This document shows, one piece after another, positions 2,154-39,819 of a stretch of 43,537 bases of DNA. The notes beneath the pieces were generated by a model. It saw only the letters and a program-made list of their open reading frames with translations, was not told the origin of the DNA and searched no databases. Both the position numbers and the translations under genes were made by a program. The stretch is from a virus: positions 1 through 43,537 of the IMG/VR virus record IMGVR_UViG_3300031539_000091. One strand, 5' to 3'. The stretch's first letter is position 1. Every line of letters starts with the position of its first letter.

Positions 2154-3506
2154 TTAAATTTTCTCGCCTGCTTTAAACCCACGAAACGCTTTAAAGCGCG
2201 GAAATCTCATGCTATGGTAATCATTGCTGTCGCTCTTGCTAAGGGCATCAGCGCGCACTTCCGCAACCATACCGATAAGCTTTTTCTGCGCAGAGGGGAC
2301 AAACCACTCTTCACGTTGTTTGTCGCTGTAACCGCTGCCAACACTAACTCGAATCTTAACACCGTCGTCAACGCCTTCGCAAAGCAGGGCACCCATTTTG
2401 CCTACGTTTTTCGTACCGGCCTTGCCCTCTTCAACTTTGATTACTTTGAGGCTAACTTCGATAAACGGTTTCAGCTTCAACCAATCTACCGAACGTTTGC
2501 AGCGATACGGTGCGTCGAGGTTTTTAATCATAATACCCTCGTACCCACCTTTAATTGCTTTGTTGTTGATCTCGGCAAATTTCTTTTGCCCAGCATTCGT
2601 ATCCAATTCCACAATATCATGTTCCAAAATACGAACGTTGTCACCGAGCGCAAGTTGAGAAAAGACATGCGTATGCCATTTCTTCAGTGTCGCGGTGCGA
2701 TCGACTTGTTTAACTTTACTAATGCCCACTTTGAATTCGTTTACAGTTAGAACGTCAAACAAATACAGCACCGCATCCTTAGCGTTGACGTTCGACTTAC
2801 GATTGATTTGCGTCATCAAGTCCTGAAACGACGCGCTCATCACTTCACCGTCAAGTACCATCGGTTCCTTAAACTGCTTAAGGCACTTGCTAATCTGTTC
2901 TTTAATGTGTCCGAAGTTATGGAGTTCTTTTCCGTTCCGGCTATACTGAATAACCTCGCCAGTTGCGGGATACACAAAAGTTAGGACACGCACACCATCC
3001 AATTTAGTTTCAATCATTTTCTTACCACTAACCTTTTCTTCGTGGTTTTTGCTATCGTGCGCTAGTTGGGCTTCAAATACCGGCACGCCGTATTCTTTCA
3101 GCTTGCCCATCGCTTTAGCCATCTTGTTTACTGTACGCTCGCTCATACCACAGCGCAGGTCTTTAATAAGGATACGTCGGTACCAGCCGTTCCATTCTTC
3201 GTTGGTAGCTAATCCCATAGCAGTATCAATTTCTGCTAGGGCAGCATGACCAGTAACTTTACGTTGGGATAGGCGATCGGCTAAGATTTTAAACGTCGCC
3301 CAAGTAAGGCCAATGCCGCCGACATTCTTATCGCTGCGCACCGGAACCTTTTTCACACCGAATGTAACCATCGCGTCATACGCAAGGCGCACACCGGCAA
3401 AAAAATCTGAATTGCTTGCTTTGATTTCGCGGGTAACAATTGCCTGCTTGACAAGCTTGCTGTTATCAGCTTCGAGTTCTGCAATAACTGTCCACGGTTT
3501 GTTCAT
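2154..3506 (-). CDS. ATP-dependent DNA ligase
   Basis: 450 aa. This joins nicks in duplex DNA, as T4 gp30 does during replication and repair. The adenylation motif I is at about residues 166-173 (ETKLDGVR, K168 as AMP acceptor). Later nucleotidyltransferase motifs include LDGEVM, a segment ending YLFDVL, EGIMIKN and the final WLKLKP. The C-terminal part (VGKMGALLCEG to RFPRFKAFR) matches the OB-fold domain of phage and archaeal-type ligases. The length is close to T4 ligase (487 aa). The ATG at 3506 has GGAG 8 nt upstream. A strong sigma-70 promoter at 3540-3568 suggests early or middle expression. Confidence 0.95.
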   Translation of the reverse strand: MNKPWTVIAELEADNSKLVKQAIVTREIKASNSDFFAGVRLAYDAMVTFGVKKVPVRSDKNVGGIGLTWATFKILADRLSQRKVTGHAALAEIDTAMGLATNEEWNGWYRRILIKDLRCGMSERTVNKMAKAMGKLKEYGVPVFEAQLAHDSKNHEEKVSGKKMIETKLDGVRVLTFVYPATGEVIQYSRNGKELHNFGHIKEQISKCLKQFKEPMVLDGEVMSASFQDLMTQINRKSNVNAKDAVLYLFDVLTVNEFKVGISKVKQVDRTATLKKWHTHVFSQLALGDNVRILEHDIVELDTNAGQKKFAEINNKAIKGGYEGIMIKNLDAPYRCKRSVDWLKLKPFIEVSLKVIKVEEGKAGTKNVGKMGALLCEGVDDGVKIRVSVGSGYSDKQREEWFVPSAQKKLIGMVAEVRADALSKSDSNDYHSMRFPRFKAFRGFKAGEKI

Positions 3507-3539
3507 CAATGCCGCTCCTAGTTAACATTTTACTCTACT

Positions 3540-4387: not shown

Positions 4388-4419
4388 CCTGGTTGTTTTG
4401 TTAACAAGGCACAACCAGG
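4388..4419 (-). other. 3' hairpin of the tmRNA coding piece
   Basis: CCTGGTTGT and ACAACCAGG form a perfect 9-bp stem whose loop holds the self-complementary TTGTTAACAA. It follows the tag stop by 16 nt, where tmRNAs carry helix 5 or a downstream pseudoknot. The following GTTATTTTATT could also act as a weak terminator. Confidence 0.6.
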
Positions 4420-4435
4420 AAATCCCCGTCGAGTA

Positions 4436-4480
4436 TTACGCCGCTAGGCGTAGGTCCTCAAAGTATGCACTATCGTTTGC
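4436..4480 (-). other. tmRNA tag reading frame (14 codons plus stop)
   Basis: GCA AAC GAT AGT GCA at the 5' end and CTA GCG GCG TAA at the 3' end encode ANDSAYFEDLRLAA. The AND start and LAA end match known ssrA tags (E. coli ANDENYALAA) and would present a C-terminal degron to ClpXP-type proteases. Confidence 0.92.
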
Positions 4481-4568
4481 ATTTACGTTTTTTGCTCTGC
4501 TTACGGCAGTCGCCTATCGTGCTGTCCATTTAGTTACTCACCTGTCCTGTCGAAACCTTGTCATCCCC

Positions 4569-4647
4569 AACGAAGCACACTAAGGGATTGCTCTCCTTGT
4601 ATCGCAGTCGTTCCCAAACGCTGCGCCTCTCGGAGTAAATGTGCTTC
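4569..4647 (-). other. Intervening segment of the permuted tmRNA precursor
   Basis: 79 nt separate the acceptor 3' end from the coding 5' end. Its ends are the inverted repeat GAAGCACA / TGTGCTTC (8 bp), nearly continuous with the 7-bp acceptor stem. The precursor would therefore fold as one long helix that is cut on both sides to give two RNAs. Confidence 0.85.
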
Positions 4648-4715
4648 GGTGGAGATGGCGGGAGTCGAACCCGCGTCCAGAACACCTTTTACCTCACTTC
4701 ATACAGCAATAGTAA

Positions 4716-5054
4716 TTATTTATCTCCTTCAGTTTTTCCCATACGTTTATTGTGCCCAAGATCGTGTAAAGCTTTAATCCATTCCCAACCAAACCACCCA
4801 ACAAACACTACGCACATCAATACGAACCCAACAACAAATGATGCAATGAAACTAAAAAATGTTATTGCATACCAAGGGATTGGATTGTTAATATGCCAAA
4901 TTAGGAGACCTATAAACGATACCGCATAACAAAGCCAATATATGATGAATCTAGCATCTTCGTTTCCTTCTGTAAGACGCGAGATTAAATATCCTATAAA
5001 ATATCGCACTATAATTCTTAATCCGGTCCAGAGATTTAAAAAGAATTCTTTCAT
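4716..5054 (-). CDS. Small membrane protein, 112 aa
   Basis: Two hydrophobic stretches are visible: FIIYWLCYAVSFIGLLIW and ITFFSFIASFVVGFVLMCVV. A charged C-terminus (ALHDLGHNKRMGKTEGDK) follows. The start MKEFFLNLW at 5054 overlaps the preceding stop as ATGA. It is the last of five coupled small membrane genes and ends just before the tmRNA. No family recognised. Confidence 0.65.
   Translation of the reverse strand: MKEFFLNLWTGLRIIVRYFIGYLISRLTEGNEDARFIIYWLCYAVSFIGLLIWHINNPIPWYAITFFSFIASFVVGFVLMCVVFVGWFGWEWIKALHDLGHNKRMGKTEGDK
4717..4724 (-). promoter_or_regulatory. T4-type late promoter candidate for the tmRNA
   Basis: GATAAATA on the minus strand, overlapping the stop codon of the upstream gene. 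Late initiation about 6 nt beyond its last A falls at roughly 4711, almost at the expected 5' end of the tmRNA acceptor piece. Confidence 0.45.
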
Positions 5055-9619: not shown

Positions 9620-11563
9620 ATGAAACTAATAAGCTTCTCGCAACCAAACTTCCAACAAGGACCGAAAGAATTTAACGCATACTACCTTCCGTACAGCGCA
9701 GGCGTGCTTTGGTCGTATGTTAAATCGTTCCCACACATCAACGAGAATTACAAATTACTAAATTACATCTGGAAGAGAGACGCACTAGATAAATCCTTAG
9801 ATCTTATTAAGGACAGTGACGTCGCATGTTTCAGTACCTATGTGTGGAACAAAAGCTATAATTACACTTTAGCCAAGAGGATGAAGGACTTAAAACCAGA
9901 ATGTCTTATTGTGTTCGGTGGTCCCGAACCTCCCATTACCGATCCTGAATTTTTCAAAACGTTTCCGTACATTGATATAATGGTAAAGTCGGAAGGTGAG
10001 AAAACATTCCTCAAAATATTAGAGTCTACAAGCTTAGAAGAATTAAGACAGGTACCGGGGTTATTGTTAAACATTGATGGCGAAACGGTTGATACAGGAA
10101 ACCCGGATAGAATTAACAACTTGGAAGAAGTTCCTAGTCCTTATCTAACAGGATTGTTTGACGACTTAATGGCCGCCCACCCAGAAGTAGAGTGGAACAT
10201 GACACTAGAAACAAATAGAGGTTGTCCTTACCAATGTACATTCTGTGACTGGGGTAGTTTAACATATAACAAGGTTAAGAAATTTGAACTTGATCGTGTC
10301 AATGATGAGATCGAATGGGCAGGTAAAAACAAGTGCGGGTTTATTTCCATTACAGATGCAAACTTTGGCATATTCCCGGATAGGGATAATTTGATTGCTG
10401 ATAAGATAATAGAAGTACAGACGAACTATGGTTACCCAAATACGTTTAGCACTGCTTGGGCAAAGAACCAGAAACAAGAAGTGGTGGATATTGTTAAGAA
10501 ACTTATACATTCACCACGTGGATTTAATCAGGGCTTAACACTGTCAGTTCAAAGCTTAGACTTAGACGTTTTAGAGAATATCAAGCGAAAAAACTTAGAA
10601 ATTAGCAAGATCGAAGAAGTTTTTGACATTTGTGATAAAGAAAATATTCCAATCTACACTGAAATTATCCTAGGATTACCGGGAGAAACACTAGCAACTT
10701 GGAAACAAAACTTTTGGAAGCTATTCAATTCTGGAAATCACACCGGAGTAACAGTGTTTCAAGCTCAAATGCTAGAAAATGCGGAGATGAACTTATTACA
10801 GAAGAAACTCTATAAGATCACTGACCAAATGGTTTATGACTATATGAGCGGCAGCTATAACGAGGATGAATTGAAGGAAGGGATCAAAGTTATTACATCA
10901 ACAAAGGATATGTCATTCGACGAGATGCTAGAAGCACAGATCTTTAGCTGGTATATAAACACGTTTCATATAAACGGATTGACTACATACATTAGTAGAT
11001 TTTTAAAGAAGTTTCGCAATATTGAATACTCGGATTTCTACGAAAAGCTGTTTGAATACGTTAAGCAGGATTCATGGATTGCTGAAGAGATAGAAGAAGT
11101 AGGTAGTTACTATCGTCGTTGGATGACCACTGGACAAATTGACCATCCTATTATCGGAAATATAGAAATACATGGATGGAATTTAATCCATAGGTCAGTA
11201 ATACGAATACATGCTGATAACAAATATGATCATATATTTAATATGGTAGAAGACTTTATTAATAAAGAATACGACTTAGATGAAGGTAATTGGGATAGCT
11301 GCCCTGACGACATCCTCGAGCAGTTAATGAAATTTCAGCGCAACTATTTAATCAACTACCACGATATTCCAAACTATCCTAAGGTATTAACATTCGATTA
11401 TGATTTCTTAGGATACTTGCAAGACGATGCTAACATCAGAGATCAAGTGCAGTACACTTTCGACTTCAATGAAGACAAGACAATGAGTTTCCCGCGCTTC
11501 TTGGACAATATCTATTTTTATAGAAGAAGGAACTTTGGGAAAGCTTGGATTACGAAAATTTAA
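9620..11563 (+). CDS. B12-binding-domain radical SAM enzyme, 647 aa
   Basis: The first ~140 residues have a Rossmann-like B12-binding fold (VACFSTYVWNKSYNYTLAK, then VFGGPEPP). The radical SAM cluster motif GCPYQCTFCDWG supplies C202, C206 and C209 for a [4Fe-4S] cluster. SAM-domain features include ITDANFGIF, LSVQSLDLDVL and EIILGLPGET. The C-terminal ~200 residues are unassigned. Family members use SAM and often cobalamin to methylate or rearrange unactivated carbons. The classical DxHxxG cobalamin ligand is not visible, as in BchE-like members. It immediately follows the ADP-ribosyltransferase-like gene. The substrate is unknown. Confidence 0.88.
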   Translation: MKLISFSQPNFQQGPKEFNAYYLPYSAGVLWSYVKSFPHINENYKLLNYIWKRDALDKSLDLIKDSDVACFSTYVWNKSYNYTLAKRMKDLKPECLIVFGGPEPPITDPEFFKTFPYIDIMVKSEGEKTFLKILESTSLEELRQVPGLLLNIDGETVDTGNPDRINNLEEVPSPYLTGLFDDLMAAHPEVEWNMTLETNRGCPYQCTFCDWGSLTYNKVKKFELDRVNDEIEWAGKNKCGFISITDANFGIFPDRDNLIADKIIEVQTNYGYPNTFSTAWAKNQKQEVVDIVKKLIHSPRGFNQGLTLSVQSLDLDVLENIKRKNLEISKIEEVFDICDKENIPIYTEIILGLPGETLATWKQNFWKLFNSGNHTGVTVFQAQMLENAEMNLLQKKLYKITDQMVYDYMSGSYNEDELKEGIKVITSTKDMSFDEMLEAQIFSWYINTFHINGLTTYISRFLKKFRNIEYSDFYEKLFEYVKQDSWIAEEIEEVGSYYRRWMTTGQIDHPIIGNIEIHGWNLIHRSVIRIHADNKYDHIFNMVEDFINKEYDLDEGNWDSCPDDILEQLMKFQRNYLINYHDIPNYPKVLTFDYDFLGYLQDDANIRDQVQYTFDFNEDKTMSFPRFLDNIYFYRRRNFGKAWITKI

Positions 11564-16777: not shown

Positions 16778-17684
16778 AGTTAAAGTATTCTGTATTATGC
16801 TGCGGGCCGTCTAGTTGATAGACGCGCTGGCTTAAAGTATTGTTTACTTTCAAGAGGTTACAGTATTCGTCCAACGGAATTAAAACAATGTTGTCCTTGG
16901 CGTACAGCTTATGCCAAAATGTTAGCTTTTCCGAGCCAGCATACTTAGGAAAATATAATAAGTGGTCCTTCCAAAGATGGGCATATTGCAATGGTTTTAC
17001 ATACACTTCGCAAGCCCACAACGACTTAACTTTTGTACCTTTACGTTGCAATCCGTTGTTGTCTAAATAATTCCAGCTTCTAACCATGCTGCTAAAGAAA
17101 GGGTCGGTTAAGTAACTTAACATCACTTCATTTGTGAATAAGAAATTATAGCTTAGTCTGCCGGTGCCTTCTACTGCTCGCTTTCTACCAATGTCAGGAT
17201 CGAAATAGCTATGTAAGATATAGGGCTTTCCGTCCTTAACACAAAAGTTAGGCTGCGCCAATCCTTGTACTACATTCCTACCCTCAGGAAGCTTACTGCA
17301 AAAATACGCATGAATGGCATGGGCAGGATTAATATCTAGCTCGACGGATAGTTGGTCAACAGCTTTTCTGATCTTAGTTGCATCTTCGGTATAAACAGTT
17401 ACTCTGTTGCCAAACTTCTTCTGCACTGCCCTAACGTTTTCATACTCGTTGTCATTAAAGCCAGGCATGTGGAAAAACACAGACTCGATGCCTATGCCCT
17501 GAGAAAGGAAACTATGTAAAATAACTTGGGAGTCTAGTCCTGCGCTAAGGGCAAGGAGAAGATTACTATCTAATGCATGTAATCTTCTTGCCTCAATCTT
17601 AACTTCTTCTTTTAAACTTCTAACTTCCCTGGAACAACCATTTACTTCTACATAGAATTTGTTATCGTCAAATCCAAATTTCAT
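16776..17684 (-). CDS. PP-loop ATPase, asparagine-synthetase-like, 302 aa
   Basis: SAGLDSQV at 46-53 is a PP-loop variant (SGGxDS), following a strand LLLAL. PP-loop enzymes adenylate a carboxyl or carbonyl group before amidation, thiolation or peptide-like bond formation. VFFHMPGFNDNEYENVRAVQ and FGNRVTVY fit the N-type ATP pyrophosphatase fold of AsnB-like enzymes. The glutaminase domain of true asparagine synthetase is missing, so nitrogen or another nucleophile must come from elsewhere. It overlaps the stop codon of the DctP-like gene upstream by one base. A second PP-loop gene lies at 18649-19914. Confidence 0.75.
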   Translation of the reverse strand: MKFGFDDNKFYVEVNGCSREVRSLKEEVKIEARRLHALDSNLLLALSAGLDSQVILHSFLSQGIGIESVFFHMPGFNDNEYENVRAVQKKFGNRVTVYTEDATKIRKAVDQLSVELDINPAHAIHAYFCSKLPEGRNVVQGLAQPNFCVKDGKPYILHSYFDPDIGRKRAVEGTGRLSYNFLFTNEVMLSYLTDPFFSSMVRSWNYLDNNGLQRKGTKVKSLWACEVYVKPLQYAHLWKDHLLYFPKYAGSEKLTFWHKLYAKDNIVLIPLDEYCNLLKVNNTLSQRVYQLDGPQHNTEYFN

Positions 17685-18625
17685 TACTGAAGTCTAATCT
17701 TAGTAACTAAATCGGTTGAGAAATAATTCTTATATAACTCATAGACCGATTCGGTCATTTGCTTAAATTTTTCAACTTCGGCTTCGGGTAAATCAACAAT
17801 GTCGATATCGTCTTTCTTGCAACGTTCTTGTACTAATAGGATATCTTCAAGGCTAATTGCGCGTTCATATCTAGCTGCGTTTTCTGCGGCTGCTTGGATC
17901 TTATCCTGCTGTTCTTTAGTTAAGTCACCCCAAAAATCGGTGTTGACAATAATTGAAGTAAGGAATAAACTATGCTTGGTGTCGTTAATGTATGCACAGG
18001 CTTCATTCTGCTTTAGTGCATAAAAACGTGGATATGTACTTTCACCACCAGTAATCTCACCTTTCTTAACAGCATAGGTAATCTGCTCTAATTCCATTAC
18101 AACTGGTTCTGCCCCAACTGCTTTTAAAATATCAATAGCAACTGGACTTCTATTAGAGCGAACTTTTAGTCCTTTAAAATCTTCAACAGTTTTAATTTCT
18201 TTAGTAGCCGGGATCATTCTATATCCGCCACTATATGTAAAAGCTAATCCTTTTATGTGGCTGTCCTTGCCAAGACCGTTTAACAATCCTTTACCGATCT
18301 CACCGTCTAAAACTCTTGCAGCGTGTTGGTGGTCTCTAAACAAGAATGGAAGATCCAATACATGCATGTCCTTCGAATATCTTTCACCTAGCCAAACAGT
18401 GTACATCTGGCTCATTTCAATTTCACCCGATTCCATTAAGTCTAATAGATCGTGCTTCGTAACTTGTTTACCGTCGTGGTATTTGTCGCCATACTCACTT
18501 AAGGTCATAATCTCAAATTCCATGACCCCTGGCATCGTTACACTTAGCTCTTCAACAAACTTTAGTGCTGCCCGTAGGAATAATTCAATCGGCTCGTGCG
18601 CCAGCACCCATCTAATTTTTTTCAT
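17684..18625 (-). CDS. TRAP-type solute-binding protein (DctP-like) without signal peptide
   Basis: 313 aa. Strong DctP/TRAP features: DLPFLFRDHQHAARVLDGEI, a turn FTYSGGYRMI, GLKVRSNRSPVAIDILKAVG then EPVVMELEQI, and GGESTYPRFYALK. In the family the Arg in this VR segment contacts the substrate carboxylate. Normal members are exported to the periplasm. This one starts directly at the mature-like MKKIRWVLAHEP, so it should stay cytoplasmic. Lying between two PP-loop genes, it could deliver or sequester a carboxylate for them (inference). Strong ribosome site AGGAGG. AATAAATA lies upstream. Confidence 0.85.
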   Translation of the reverse strand: MKKIRWVLAHEPIELFLRAALKFVEELSVTMPGVMEFEIMTLSEYGDKYHDGKQVTKHDLLDLMESGEIEMSQMYTVWLGERYSKDMHVLDLPFLFRDHQHAARVLDGEIGKGLLNGLGKDSHIKGLAFTYSGGYRMIPATKEIKTVEDFKGLKVRSNRSPVAIDILKAVGAEPVVMELEQITYAVKKGEITGGESTYPRFYALKQNEACAYINDTKHSLFLTSIIVNTDFWGDLTKEQQDKIQAAAENAARYERAISLEDILLVQERCKKDDIDIVDLPEAEVEKFKQMTESVYELYKNYFSTDLVTKIRLQ

Positions 18626-37758: not shown

Positions 37759-38335
37759 AATGTATTTTATCCCAATCGAATTTATAATTCCAGTCTAACG
37801 GTTTATATAAAACATAGTGTTTGGTGTGATTTATATAAACAGGTTTATTGTGCGCAGTTAAGCCTTCATATACATTGTATTTAACTGCTTGGTTGTGTAA
37901 GAACAAATTAAACTTACCTTTTTGCATTACGTTGAAAAGTGATCCACCATTTTCAAAACAAAAGAACATTGCCTTACCGCCGCGCCTTTTAACTTCCTCA
38001 GTTTGTTTTGGTAACATGTACTGACTCATCAATAATTGGTGTTGGTGAGATTTTCTCGTTAATGTCCTAACTCCACAAATGTAAATGTTCTCATCAAAGT
38101 CGGCCTTATTGAAGCCTGACATGTGAGCTAGCTGCTCGTTTTCATAAAGTAAAATGTATGCACCATTATTCTCAGAGAAAATATCTGTATACACTAATTT
38201 GTGAAGAATGCATTTTGGATTGTTACCCCAATCAACGTCGGTGAAGTTTTCCAAGTGTCTATTTTCAGCGCACAAGGAAACAATGTCATTCAAGTCACTA
38301 ATTGTGCAGCGTTCTTTCGTTATTGTTCTAAGCAT
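37736..38335 (-). CDS. GNAT-like acyltransferase, 199 aa
   Basis: The central part fits the GNAT fold: AYILLYENEQLAHMSGFN, then ICGVRTLTRKSHQHQLL in place of the CoA-binding strand and loop, then GGKAMFFCFENGGSLFNVMQ. The usual Q/RxxGxG/A loop is not clear, so acetyl-CoA use is uncertain. It overlaps the radical SAM stop by 16 nt. Confidence 0.6.
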   Translation of the reverse strand: MLRTITKERCTISDLNDIVSLCAENRHLENFTDVDWGNNPKCILHKLVYTDIFSENNGAYILLYENEQLAHMSGFNKADFDENIYICGVRTLTRKSHQHQLLMSQYMLPKQTEEVKRRGGKAMFFCFENGGSLFNVMQKGKFNLFLHNQAVKYNVYEGLTAHNKPVYINHTKHYVLYKPLDWNYKFDWDKIHYDGPIQK

Positions 38336-39819
38336 CGCTTTTTGTACTTATTAAACATTGCTTCTGTTATCGCTTTAATTTTGGATGCATCTCTTTTGTT
38401 GCTTAAATTCTTAACTTCGTCATATGTTAAACCGTATCCCATAAGTGTTACTAGTGAAAAGTTTTGCAAACTTCTATCTGTTTTTGCTGCCTCTATATTA
38501 GCATCAGTTGCTAAACTTTTTACAGCATCGTATGAGGTTACGTTGTTAACCCACTGTGGATTCAATGCATATGATTTTGAATTTTTTATTGTGTAATTAA
38601 ACTTCTTTAAGTCTAAATCAATATCTGTTTTGTACGTTGCTGCACTACCTAATAATGTTAGAGGTTGAAAAATTAGATCGTGTTTGTAAAAGAGGTTAGT
38701 TCCGAATACATACTGACTGGTCCATCTGTCCATTGTCTGTATTGTTTCGCCAGGTAACCCATATATAAACGAACAGGTAACGGAAATCTCGTCTTTCCAT
38801 TTTTGATTCACTAGTTCCATTGCTCGTAATGTCTTATCCGGCGATTGTCCTTTTCCTATATTCTTTTTAGATGTTTCATCTAATGTTTCTATCCCGAAAA
38901 ATGCCCCGCGTAATCCCATCTTCTTTAGTAAATCTATAGTATCCTGATGTGCATACAGTAAGTCTAATCTTATGTATGCTGCAAATTCTATACTAAAGGG
39001 AAGAGAACTAATCATCTCATACAATGCTTCCATTTTAGGAACAGAGTCGTTAAACGTATCGTCACAAAAGATATACTTAGTTGTGCCAAACATATCATAG
39101 TTACGTTCAAGTTCTTCCTTTAAATTGTGTGTAGTTTTAATGAAGCTATTATCTCTGGAAGAACGTCCCTTTAATGGGAACGAACAAAACTTGCATTTAA
39201 AAATACATCCTCTGGAAATTTCCAAGGGCAATGTTTCGCCGTATATAATATTATCCTCATCTTCGAATATTATCTTACTGTCCCTAAATTTAAAATCGGC
39301 ACTAAGAGGATTCGAATAAAAGGGTTTTTTATTAAAGAATTGTTTAGAGAAAATAGGACGTTGTTTGTCTACGTCTTTTACATAGTCAACTAATAAATTG
39401 TCCGCATACCCCTCAACATAAAGGTCAACAAACTCTGGGTCAATATTTTTCTTCCTACACGAAGGCCCACCTAATACTACTTTGAGATTAGGGAATTTTG
39501 TTTTATAGTGACATATAACTGCATTAATGTTTTCTATTGCCCTATTGGGAAAGCATAGCGAATTTTCGTCGTTGGCCGTGCTCCTAGCAGCATAATCAAC
39601 CATAAAGGTAGTCGATATACCTAGCACTAATGTTTTATTATCTATACAACGGTCTAACATTTCTATTAGGGTTTCTTTGCTGTAGTATCCTGCCCCTACA
39701 ACTACTTTAGTCGAATATTGATTTGCCCGTAGCTCTGTTGCTAGTCGATACGGACCTGCATATCTATTAAAAAATTGATTTGACGGCGCTTGCCCTGCTA
39801 TGAGGACTACGCTAGACAT
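38320..39819 (-). CDS. B12-binding-domain radical SAM enzyme, 499 aa
   Basis: The first ~150 residues fit a B12-binding-like Rossmann domain (LVLGISTTFMVDYAARS, LKVVLGGPSCRKK). ISRGCIFKCKFCSFPLKGRS carries C205, C209 and C212 for the [4Fe-4S] cluster. FGIETLDETSKKNIGKGQSP and SFIYGLPGET are typical later SAM motifs. The DxHxxG cobalamin ligand is absent, as in many BchE-like enzymes. It shares an operon with a desaturase, GNAT and two dioxygenases. Second such enzyme here after 9620-11563. Confidence 0.88.
   Translation of the reverse strand: MSSVVLIAGQAPSNQFFNRYAGPYRLATELRANQYSTKVVVGAGYYSKETLIEMLDRCIDNKTLVLGISTTFMVDYAARSTANDENSLCFPNRAIENINAVICHYKTKFPNLKVVLGGPSCRKKNIDPEFVDLYVEGYADNLLVDYVKDVDKQRPIFSKQFFNKKPFYSNPLSADFKFRDSKIIFEDEDNIIYGETLPLEISRGCIFKCKFCSFPLKGRSSRDNSFIKTTHNLKEELERNYDMFGTTKYIFCDDTFNDSVPKMEALYEMISSLPFSIEFAAYIRLDLLYAHQDTIDLLKKMGLRGAFFGIETLDETSKKNIGKGQSPDKTLRAMELVNQKWKDEISVTCSFIYGLPGETIQTMDRWTSQYVFGTNLFYKHDLIFQPLTLLGSAATYKTDIDLDLKKFNYTIKNSKSYALNPQWVNNVTSYDAVKSLATDANIEAAKTDRSLQNFSLVTLMGYGLTYDEVKNLSNKRDASKIKAITEAMFNKYKKRCLEQ

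Follow-up and report, generated by a model that had tools for sequence, protein, structure and literature searches.

Two-piece tmRNA genes of the permuted form have already been described in bacteriophages. A two-piece ssrA was reported in 2022 for Melnitz, a marine methylophage of OM43, and a survey of 18,146 phage genomes in the same paper gave 53 distinct two-piece tmRNAs (PMC9004378). The 2025 tmRNA database holds 79 bacteriophage tmRNAs of all forms and 11,946 permuted sequences overall, and the maturation of such RNAs is known: tRNA-processing enzymes cleave the transcript of a permuted gene into two pieces that stay paired (PMC11915505). Records of Stenotrophomonas phages of the genus Menderavirus also contain permuted tmRNAs, some of them annotated as ssrA. 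In our own searches of IMG/VR, one spacing class alone gave at least 120 permuted tmRNA matches, and ARAGORN called 116 permuted tmRNAs among the loci collected by that stage. The original prediction, which knew of no well-described permuted tmRNA in a phage, did not hold in this respect, given Melnitz and the 53 distinct cases counted in that paper, the Stenotrophomonas phages and more than 100 cases in IMG/VR. A phage-borne permuted tmRNA as such is therefore not new.

The window, that is, the whole stretch of 43,537 nucleotides that we analysed, comes from a linear IMG/VR record and adds one more case to this populated class. ARAGORN found exactly one RNA gene in it, a permuted tmRNA at c4345-4739 with the tag ANDSAYFEDLRLAA. 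The Rfam model RF04321 (tmRNA_permuted) matched positions 4708-4436 over its full length (1-213) with 131.8 bits and an E-value of 1e-25, where the gathering cut-off is 47 bits, and RF01850 (beta_tmRNA) matched 4759-4366 with 97.6 bits (cut-off 84). The tmRNA gene is thus confirmed far beyond chance. The prediction of a phage-borne, two-piece permuted tmRNA on the minus strand, acceptor half first, was borne out by ARAGORN, RF04321 and direct reading, and two of the checks that it had proposed, ARAGORN and covariance models, both returned the gene. The features are listed in Table 1.

Table 1. Features of the permuted tmRNA gene and its downstream neighbour in the window.
Feature	Position	Strand	Basis
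Complete permuted (two-piece) tmRNA gene	4388-4709	minus	ARAGORN and Rfam
Acceptor piece, first in transcript: 5' part of helix 2, T arm, CATCTCC, ACC end	4648..4709	minus	RF04321 and RF01850 alignments
T arm GCGGG-TTCGACT-CCCGC	4658..4674	minus	read directly and Rfam
Acceptor stem 3' strand CATCTCC, has U70 of G3.U70, pairs with 4562-4568	4651..4657	minus	read directly and Rfam
ACC end after acceptor 3' strand	4650-4648	minus	read directly
Intervening segment, 79 nt, non-coding	4569..4647	minus	ends GAAGCACA/TGTGCTTC prolong acceptor stem
Acceptor stem 5' strand GGGGATG, opens coding piece	4562..4568	minus	read directly and Rfam
Coding piece up to resume codon: acceptor strand, TTTCGAC, 3' part of helix 2, short hairpin	4481..4568	minus	Rfam alignment
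Tag reading frame ANDSAYFEDLRLAA and stop, GCA...TAA	4436..4480	minus	read directly and ARAGORN
3' terminal hairpin CCTGGTTGT...ACAACCAGG	4388..4419	minus	strands 4419-4411/4396-4388
ATP-dependent DNA ligase, downstream of tmRNA	2154..3509	minus	phrog_114, E 5e-85; neighbour kept in G047 and G027

In the transcript, the acceptor piece is followed by the 79-nt intervening segment and then by the coding piece. The 3' strand of the acceptor stem (4657-4651) therefore precedes its 5' strand (4568-4562) on the same minus strand, which is the permuted order. The parts named beforehand, among them the acceptor stem GGGGATG/CATCTCC with G3.U, the T arm, helix 2 on both pieces and an AND...LAA tag frame, are present in the sequence. 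The acceptor stem forms seven of seven pairs including G3.U70, the alanine identity pair, and the T stem GCGGG/CCCGC (4674-4670/4662-4658) closes the loop TTCGACT. The terminal A of CCA is not encoded, the sequence reading ACC-G. The tag frame is open and intact and ends in LAA, and the 3' terminal hairpin folds with a z-score of -3.2. The ends of the intervening segment, GAAGCACA and TGTGCTTC, extend the acceptor stem into one long helix (91 nt folded, -39.2 kcal/mol, z -4.8), a detail that the original prediction did not contain. Segment ends are likewise complementary in other viral contigs of the same spacing, and excision of the 79-nt segment from the transcript is expected. A search of the flanks of the tmRNA gene for promoter-like and terminator-like sites gave nothing above chance level. 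Every test supports its identity as a phage-borne, circularly permuted, two-piece tmRNA, and to judge from the sequence it is very probably a working phage ssrA gene.

Like the two-piece ssrA of Melnitz and the 53 phage cases, the gene is phage-borne and permuted and has a tag frame (PMC9004378). It differs from Melnitz in the phage and the tag, and in that the Melnitz gene is described there with a predicted glutamine riboswitch in its 3' domain, whereas in our intervening segment and 3' domain even a permissive E-value in the Rfam searches brought up nothing besides the tmRNA models and matches expected by chance. In the Menderavirus ssrA genes (vB_SmaM_Bhz51, Moby), the acceptor piece also comes first and the coding piece second on one strand, and the intervening segment, 72 nt in Moby, has a prolonged acceptor stem; unlike the window gene, these lie inside a tRNA cluster, and identity is about 68% over about 220 bases. 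Bacterial permuted tmRNAs (RF04321; RF01850 beta_tmRNA) share the order and the helices, as the full-model covariance match shows, but their segments are mostly 23-57 nt against 79 nt here, and the window gene lies in a phage.

We examined pairing in 221 distinct viral permuted tmRNAs. These sequences were selected for both acceptor and T stems, so the pairing of these two stems is circular and not evidence; helix 2, which was not used in the selection, is the sole independent pairing evidence in this set. The outer and inner positions of helix 2, which joins the two pieces, are paired in 83-100% of the sequences, exceeding shuffled pairings and with many double changes, while the four pairs that the Rfam model has in the middle of the helix are not kept in these sequences. 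Helix 2 is thus conserved by covariation in its outer and inner parts, the central four pairs excepted. Absence of a covariance match, or loss of the helix 2 and acceptor pairs in related phages, would have spoken against the original prediction; the covariance models did match, and related phage genes keep helix 2 with covarying pairs. Many relatives' contigs had no detectable tmRNA copy, most of those contigs being fragments.

The closest relative, G047 (tmRNA locus L247), is collinear with the window, has a 90% identical ligase and keeps the tmRNA at the same place, before the DNA ligase. Its acceptor piece is identical to that of the window at 62 of 62 positions, and its coding piece is 93% identical before the tag and 94% in the tail; the 3' hairpin shows a compensatory change from G-C to A-U in G047 (CCTAG...CTAGG). 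Two stretches did not align at all. One is the intervening segment, 79 nt and non-coding in the window versus 147 nt and protein-coding in G047, and the other is the tag, ANDSAYFEDLRLAA (14 aa) versus (VN)DKFTKNGTFVVSGKGIKLSSFVTAEAELA (29-31 aa). The window's tag DNA is 84-87% identical to the tags of L037 and L532, which sit on other tmRNA backbones, and the tags of L080 and L402 are related to it. The nested ORF of G047 has a relative on another backbone (L513), while the window's intervening segment had no counterpart among the tmRNA loci compared. Recombination of tag and intervening segment between backbones would be the simplest reading of these sequences.

We then took the viral permuted tmRNAs in which both the acceptor and the T stem pair and looked for ORFs in their intervening segments, calling an ORF significant when it was longer than in 95% of shuffles. 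Among the matches listed, significant ORFs were present in 35 of 48 segments of 143-174 nt, in 24 of 68 segments of 112-142 nt and in 1 of 103 segments of 58-89 nt; each of these three gap classes holds at least the number given, and the actual proportions, both of segments that code and of tags that are long, may differ. Many of the nested ORFs start about 12 nt into the segment, after the Shine-Dalgarno sequence AAGGA, and many stop at a TGA immediately 5' of the coding piece. They are present in L247 (G047), L248 (G053), L245 (G052), L250 (G054), L150 (G014) and many of the loci L305-L536, and represent several protein families, coiled-coil and membrane proteins among them. Comparisons within a family mostly gave a dN/dS of 0.05-0.4, with a few at 0.5-0.7 and with very close pairs uninformative; these sequence comparisons indicate that the nested small ORFs in many viral permuted tmRNAs are under purifying selection. 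No ORF spans the window's own 79-nt segment.

By the same measure, none of the 35 bacterial permuted tmRNA genes examined had a significant nested ORF. Their intervening segments were mostly 23-57 nt long, with a few of 106-233 nt. A scan of bacterial contigs for long intervening segments gave no permuted tmRNA of that length among the matches listed, and the bacterial controls were therefore drawn from covariance searches. Of 150 genomes sampled from the order to which an Azonexus MAG belongs, only 4 (G098, G214, G123 and G156) had a strong permuted tmRNA, the other matches being weak save one at 51 bits, just above the cut-off. Nested small protein genes are thus a feature of many viral and of none of the examined bacterial permuted tmRNAs. 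In the literature searched, which lies largely outside the subscription journals, the Melnitz paper was the only one to use the terms 'permuted tmRNA' and 'open reading frame' together, and its passages on the tmRNA mention no such nested ORF (PMC9004378). Two features of phage permuted tmRNAs, exchangeable tags and protein genes nested in the segment that is cut out, appear to be new.

Some of the tags are much longer than that of the window. A tag family of about 29 aa with the motif VTVSGKx[VI][KR]FSARTA occurs at loci L024, L083, L251 and L261-L300, and another long-tag group contains FEY (L113, L020). A degenerate pattern for VTVSGKxVKFSARTA matched 44 viral contigs, in 40 of which it lies within a permuted tmRNA, two others being cut by the contig start and two being without clear placement. 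It had no match in the genomes of 84,980 bacterial and archaeal species, and tblastn found no long tag in annotated phages. The tag of G047 resembles this motif (GTFVVSGKGIKLSS). Most residues are already prescribed by the search pattern, so the matches are no independent evidence that the motif is conserved; for the same reason, synonymous and nonsynonymous counts on the long tag would be circular and were not used.

We lean towards a reading in which phage permuted tmRNA genes act as cassette platforms, with the tag and the excised segment swapped between close relatives on a conserved backbone. The segment would in many phages carry a small protein gene of about 30-70 aa with its own Shine-Dalgarno sequence in the stem that prolongs the acceptor, so that one transcript would give both a small protein and a rescue RNA, and translation of the ORF and maturation of the tmRNA may exclude each other. 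The window would represent the non-coding form and its nearest relative the coding form.

By analogy with known tmRNAs, the window gene most likely performs ordinary trans-translation with the SmpB of the host. The transcript would fold into one long helix, host tRNA-processing enzymes would cut out the intervening segment, and the acceptor stem and helix 2 would hold the two pieces together. The tmRNA would be charged by host AlaRS via G3.U70 and, together with host SmpB, the RNA would enter ribosomes stalled on broken mRNA, append ANDSAYFEDLRLAA and free the ribosome, the tagged product then being degraded by Clp-type proteases. Compatibility with the host's SmpB, AlaRS and Clp proteases is assumed here. 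The benefit would be recycling of ribosomes while mRNA is degraded during infection, and possibly recovery of amino acids; ribosome rescue or redirected tagging, both of which the original prediction had put forward, is plausible.

A search that detected SmpB in 10 of 14 control genomes gave no SmpB gene in any of 42 distinct viral records, among them that of the window; the RNA must therefore use host SmpB. Five large phages (G027, G032, G052, G053 and G054) encode full-length ClpA and a strong ClpP match (E 4e-82 to 2e-63) and no SmpB, and among the records tested for Clp proteins all that have both also have a permuted tmRNA. In this small sample of related phages, the pattern hints that part of the lineage may supply its own tag-and-degrade route. 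The window fragment shows no Clp gene. Partial matches to PF00574 in T4-like contigs (E 1e-26 to 1e-32) were not counted as ClpP owing to their coverage; they may be prohead proteases of the ClpP fold.

The surroundings of the gene bear on its origin. About 10 window proteins match the 158-kb record G027, a more distant relative than G047, in largely the same order, and the tmRNA lies just before the ligase in both. The 342-kb record G052, which has a terminase, matches 12 window proteins; its tmRNA lies at 136 kb and its ligase at 325 kb, so the position of the tmRNA is kept only in the nearer relatives G047 and G027. From the collinearity with G027 and the 12 proteins in common with G052, the window is most likely a piece of a large-phage genome. 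It encodes an endolysin, a UDP-glucose dehydrogenase and many proteins without known function, and no terminase match was found in it. The upstream neighbour protein (4716-5054) gave no relatives, and when the first 24 kb were compared with annotated phages by megablast, the sole match was a stretch of 52 bases in the T arm, from one Acinetobacter phage. The window also encodes a TRAP-transporter solute-binding protein, DctP (17684-18625; PF03480, 167 bits), with 27 viral relatives at 51-64% identity, and radical SAM proteins at 9620-11563 and 38320-39819, one of them with a weak B12-binding match.

That the window is misbinned bacterial DNA and its tmRNA no phage gene is the least probable of the alternatives, and highly improbable. 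Metabolic genes such as those for the TRAP solute-binding protein and UDP-glucose dehydrogenase and the missing terminase match would fit it, but the source is an IMG/VR virus record with an endolysin gene, the collinearity with G027 and the proteins common to G052 tie it to large phages, and isolated phages, too, carry genes of this kind. It is also very unlikely that the gene is a non-functional relic of ssrA, acquired from a host at an attachment site. Although tmRNA genes often serve prophages and genomic islands as integration sites (PMC11915505), this one is complete with an open tag frame, has phage genes of the same strand on both sides and is kept in relatives with compensatory change, and a PHROGs scan of 40 window proteins detected no integrase family.

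Another explanation, which concerns purpose rather than origin, is that a different tag is the very point of the phage tmRNA, which would compete with the host tmRNA so that stalled products escape, go to phage proteases or receive another mark. The exchange of tags between near-identical backbones, the restriction of VTVSGKxVKFSARTA to the 44 viral contigs in the comparison above, and the ClpA and ClpP of some relatives speak for it. The window's own tag, by contrast, is a degron of the usual AND...LAA type and resembles many other tmRNA tags, and we regard this explanation as unlikely, if less so than the other two. We prefer ordinary trans-translation by a phage gene as the reading for the window.

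The window and its nearest relative amount to a natural swap experiment, in which the same tmRNA body carries another tag and another intervening segment. If the nested protein genes hold up, the segment that is cut out would offer phages spare space for a gene, which suggests why they keep the permuted form, and the question of why phages carry a tmRNA would become testable as one of rescue, retagging or coupled control of a small protein.
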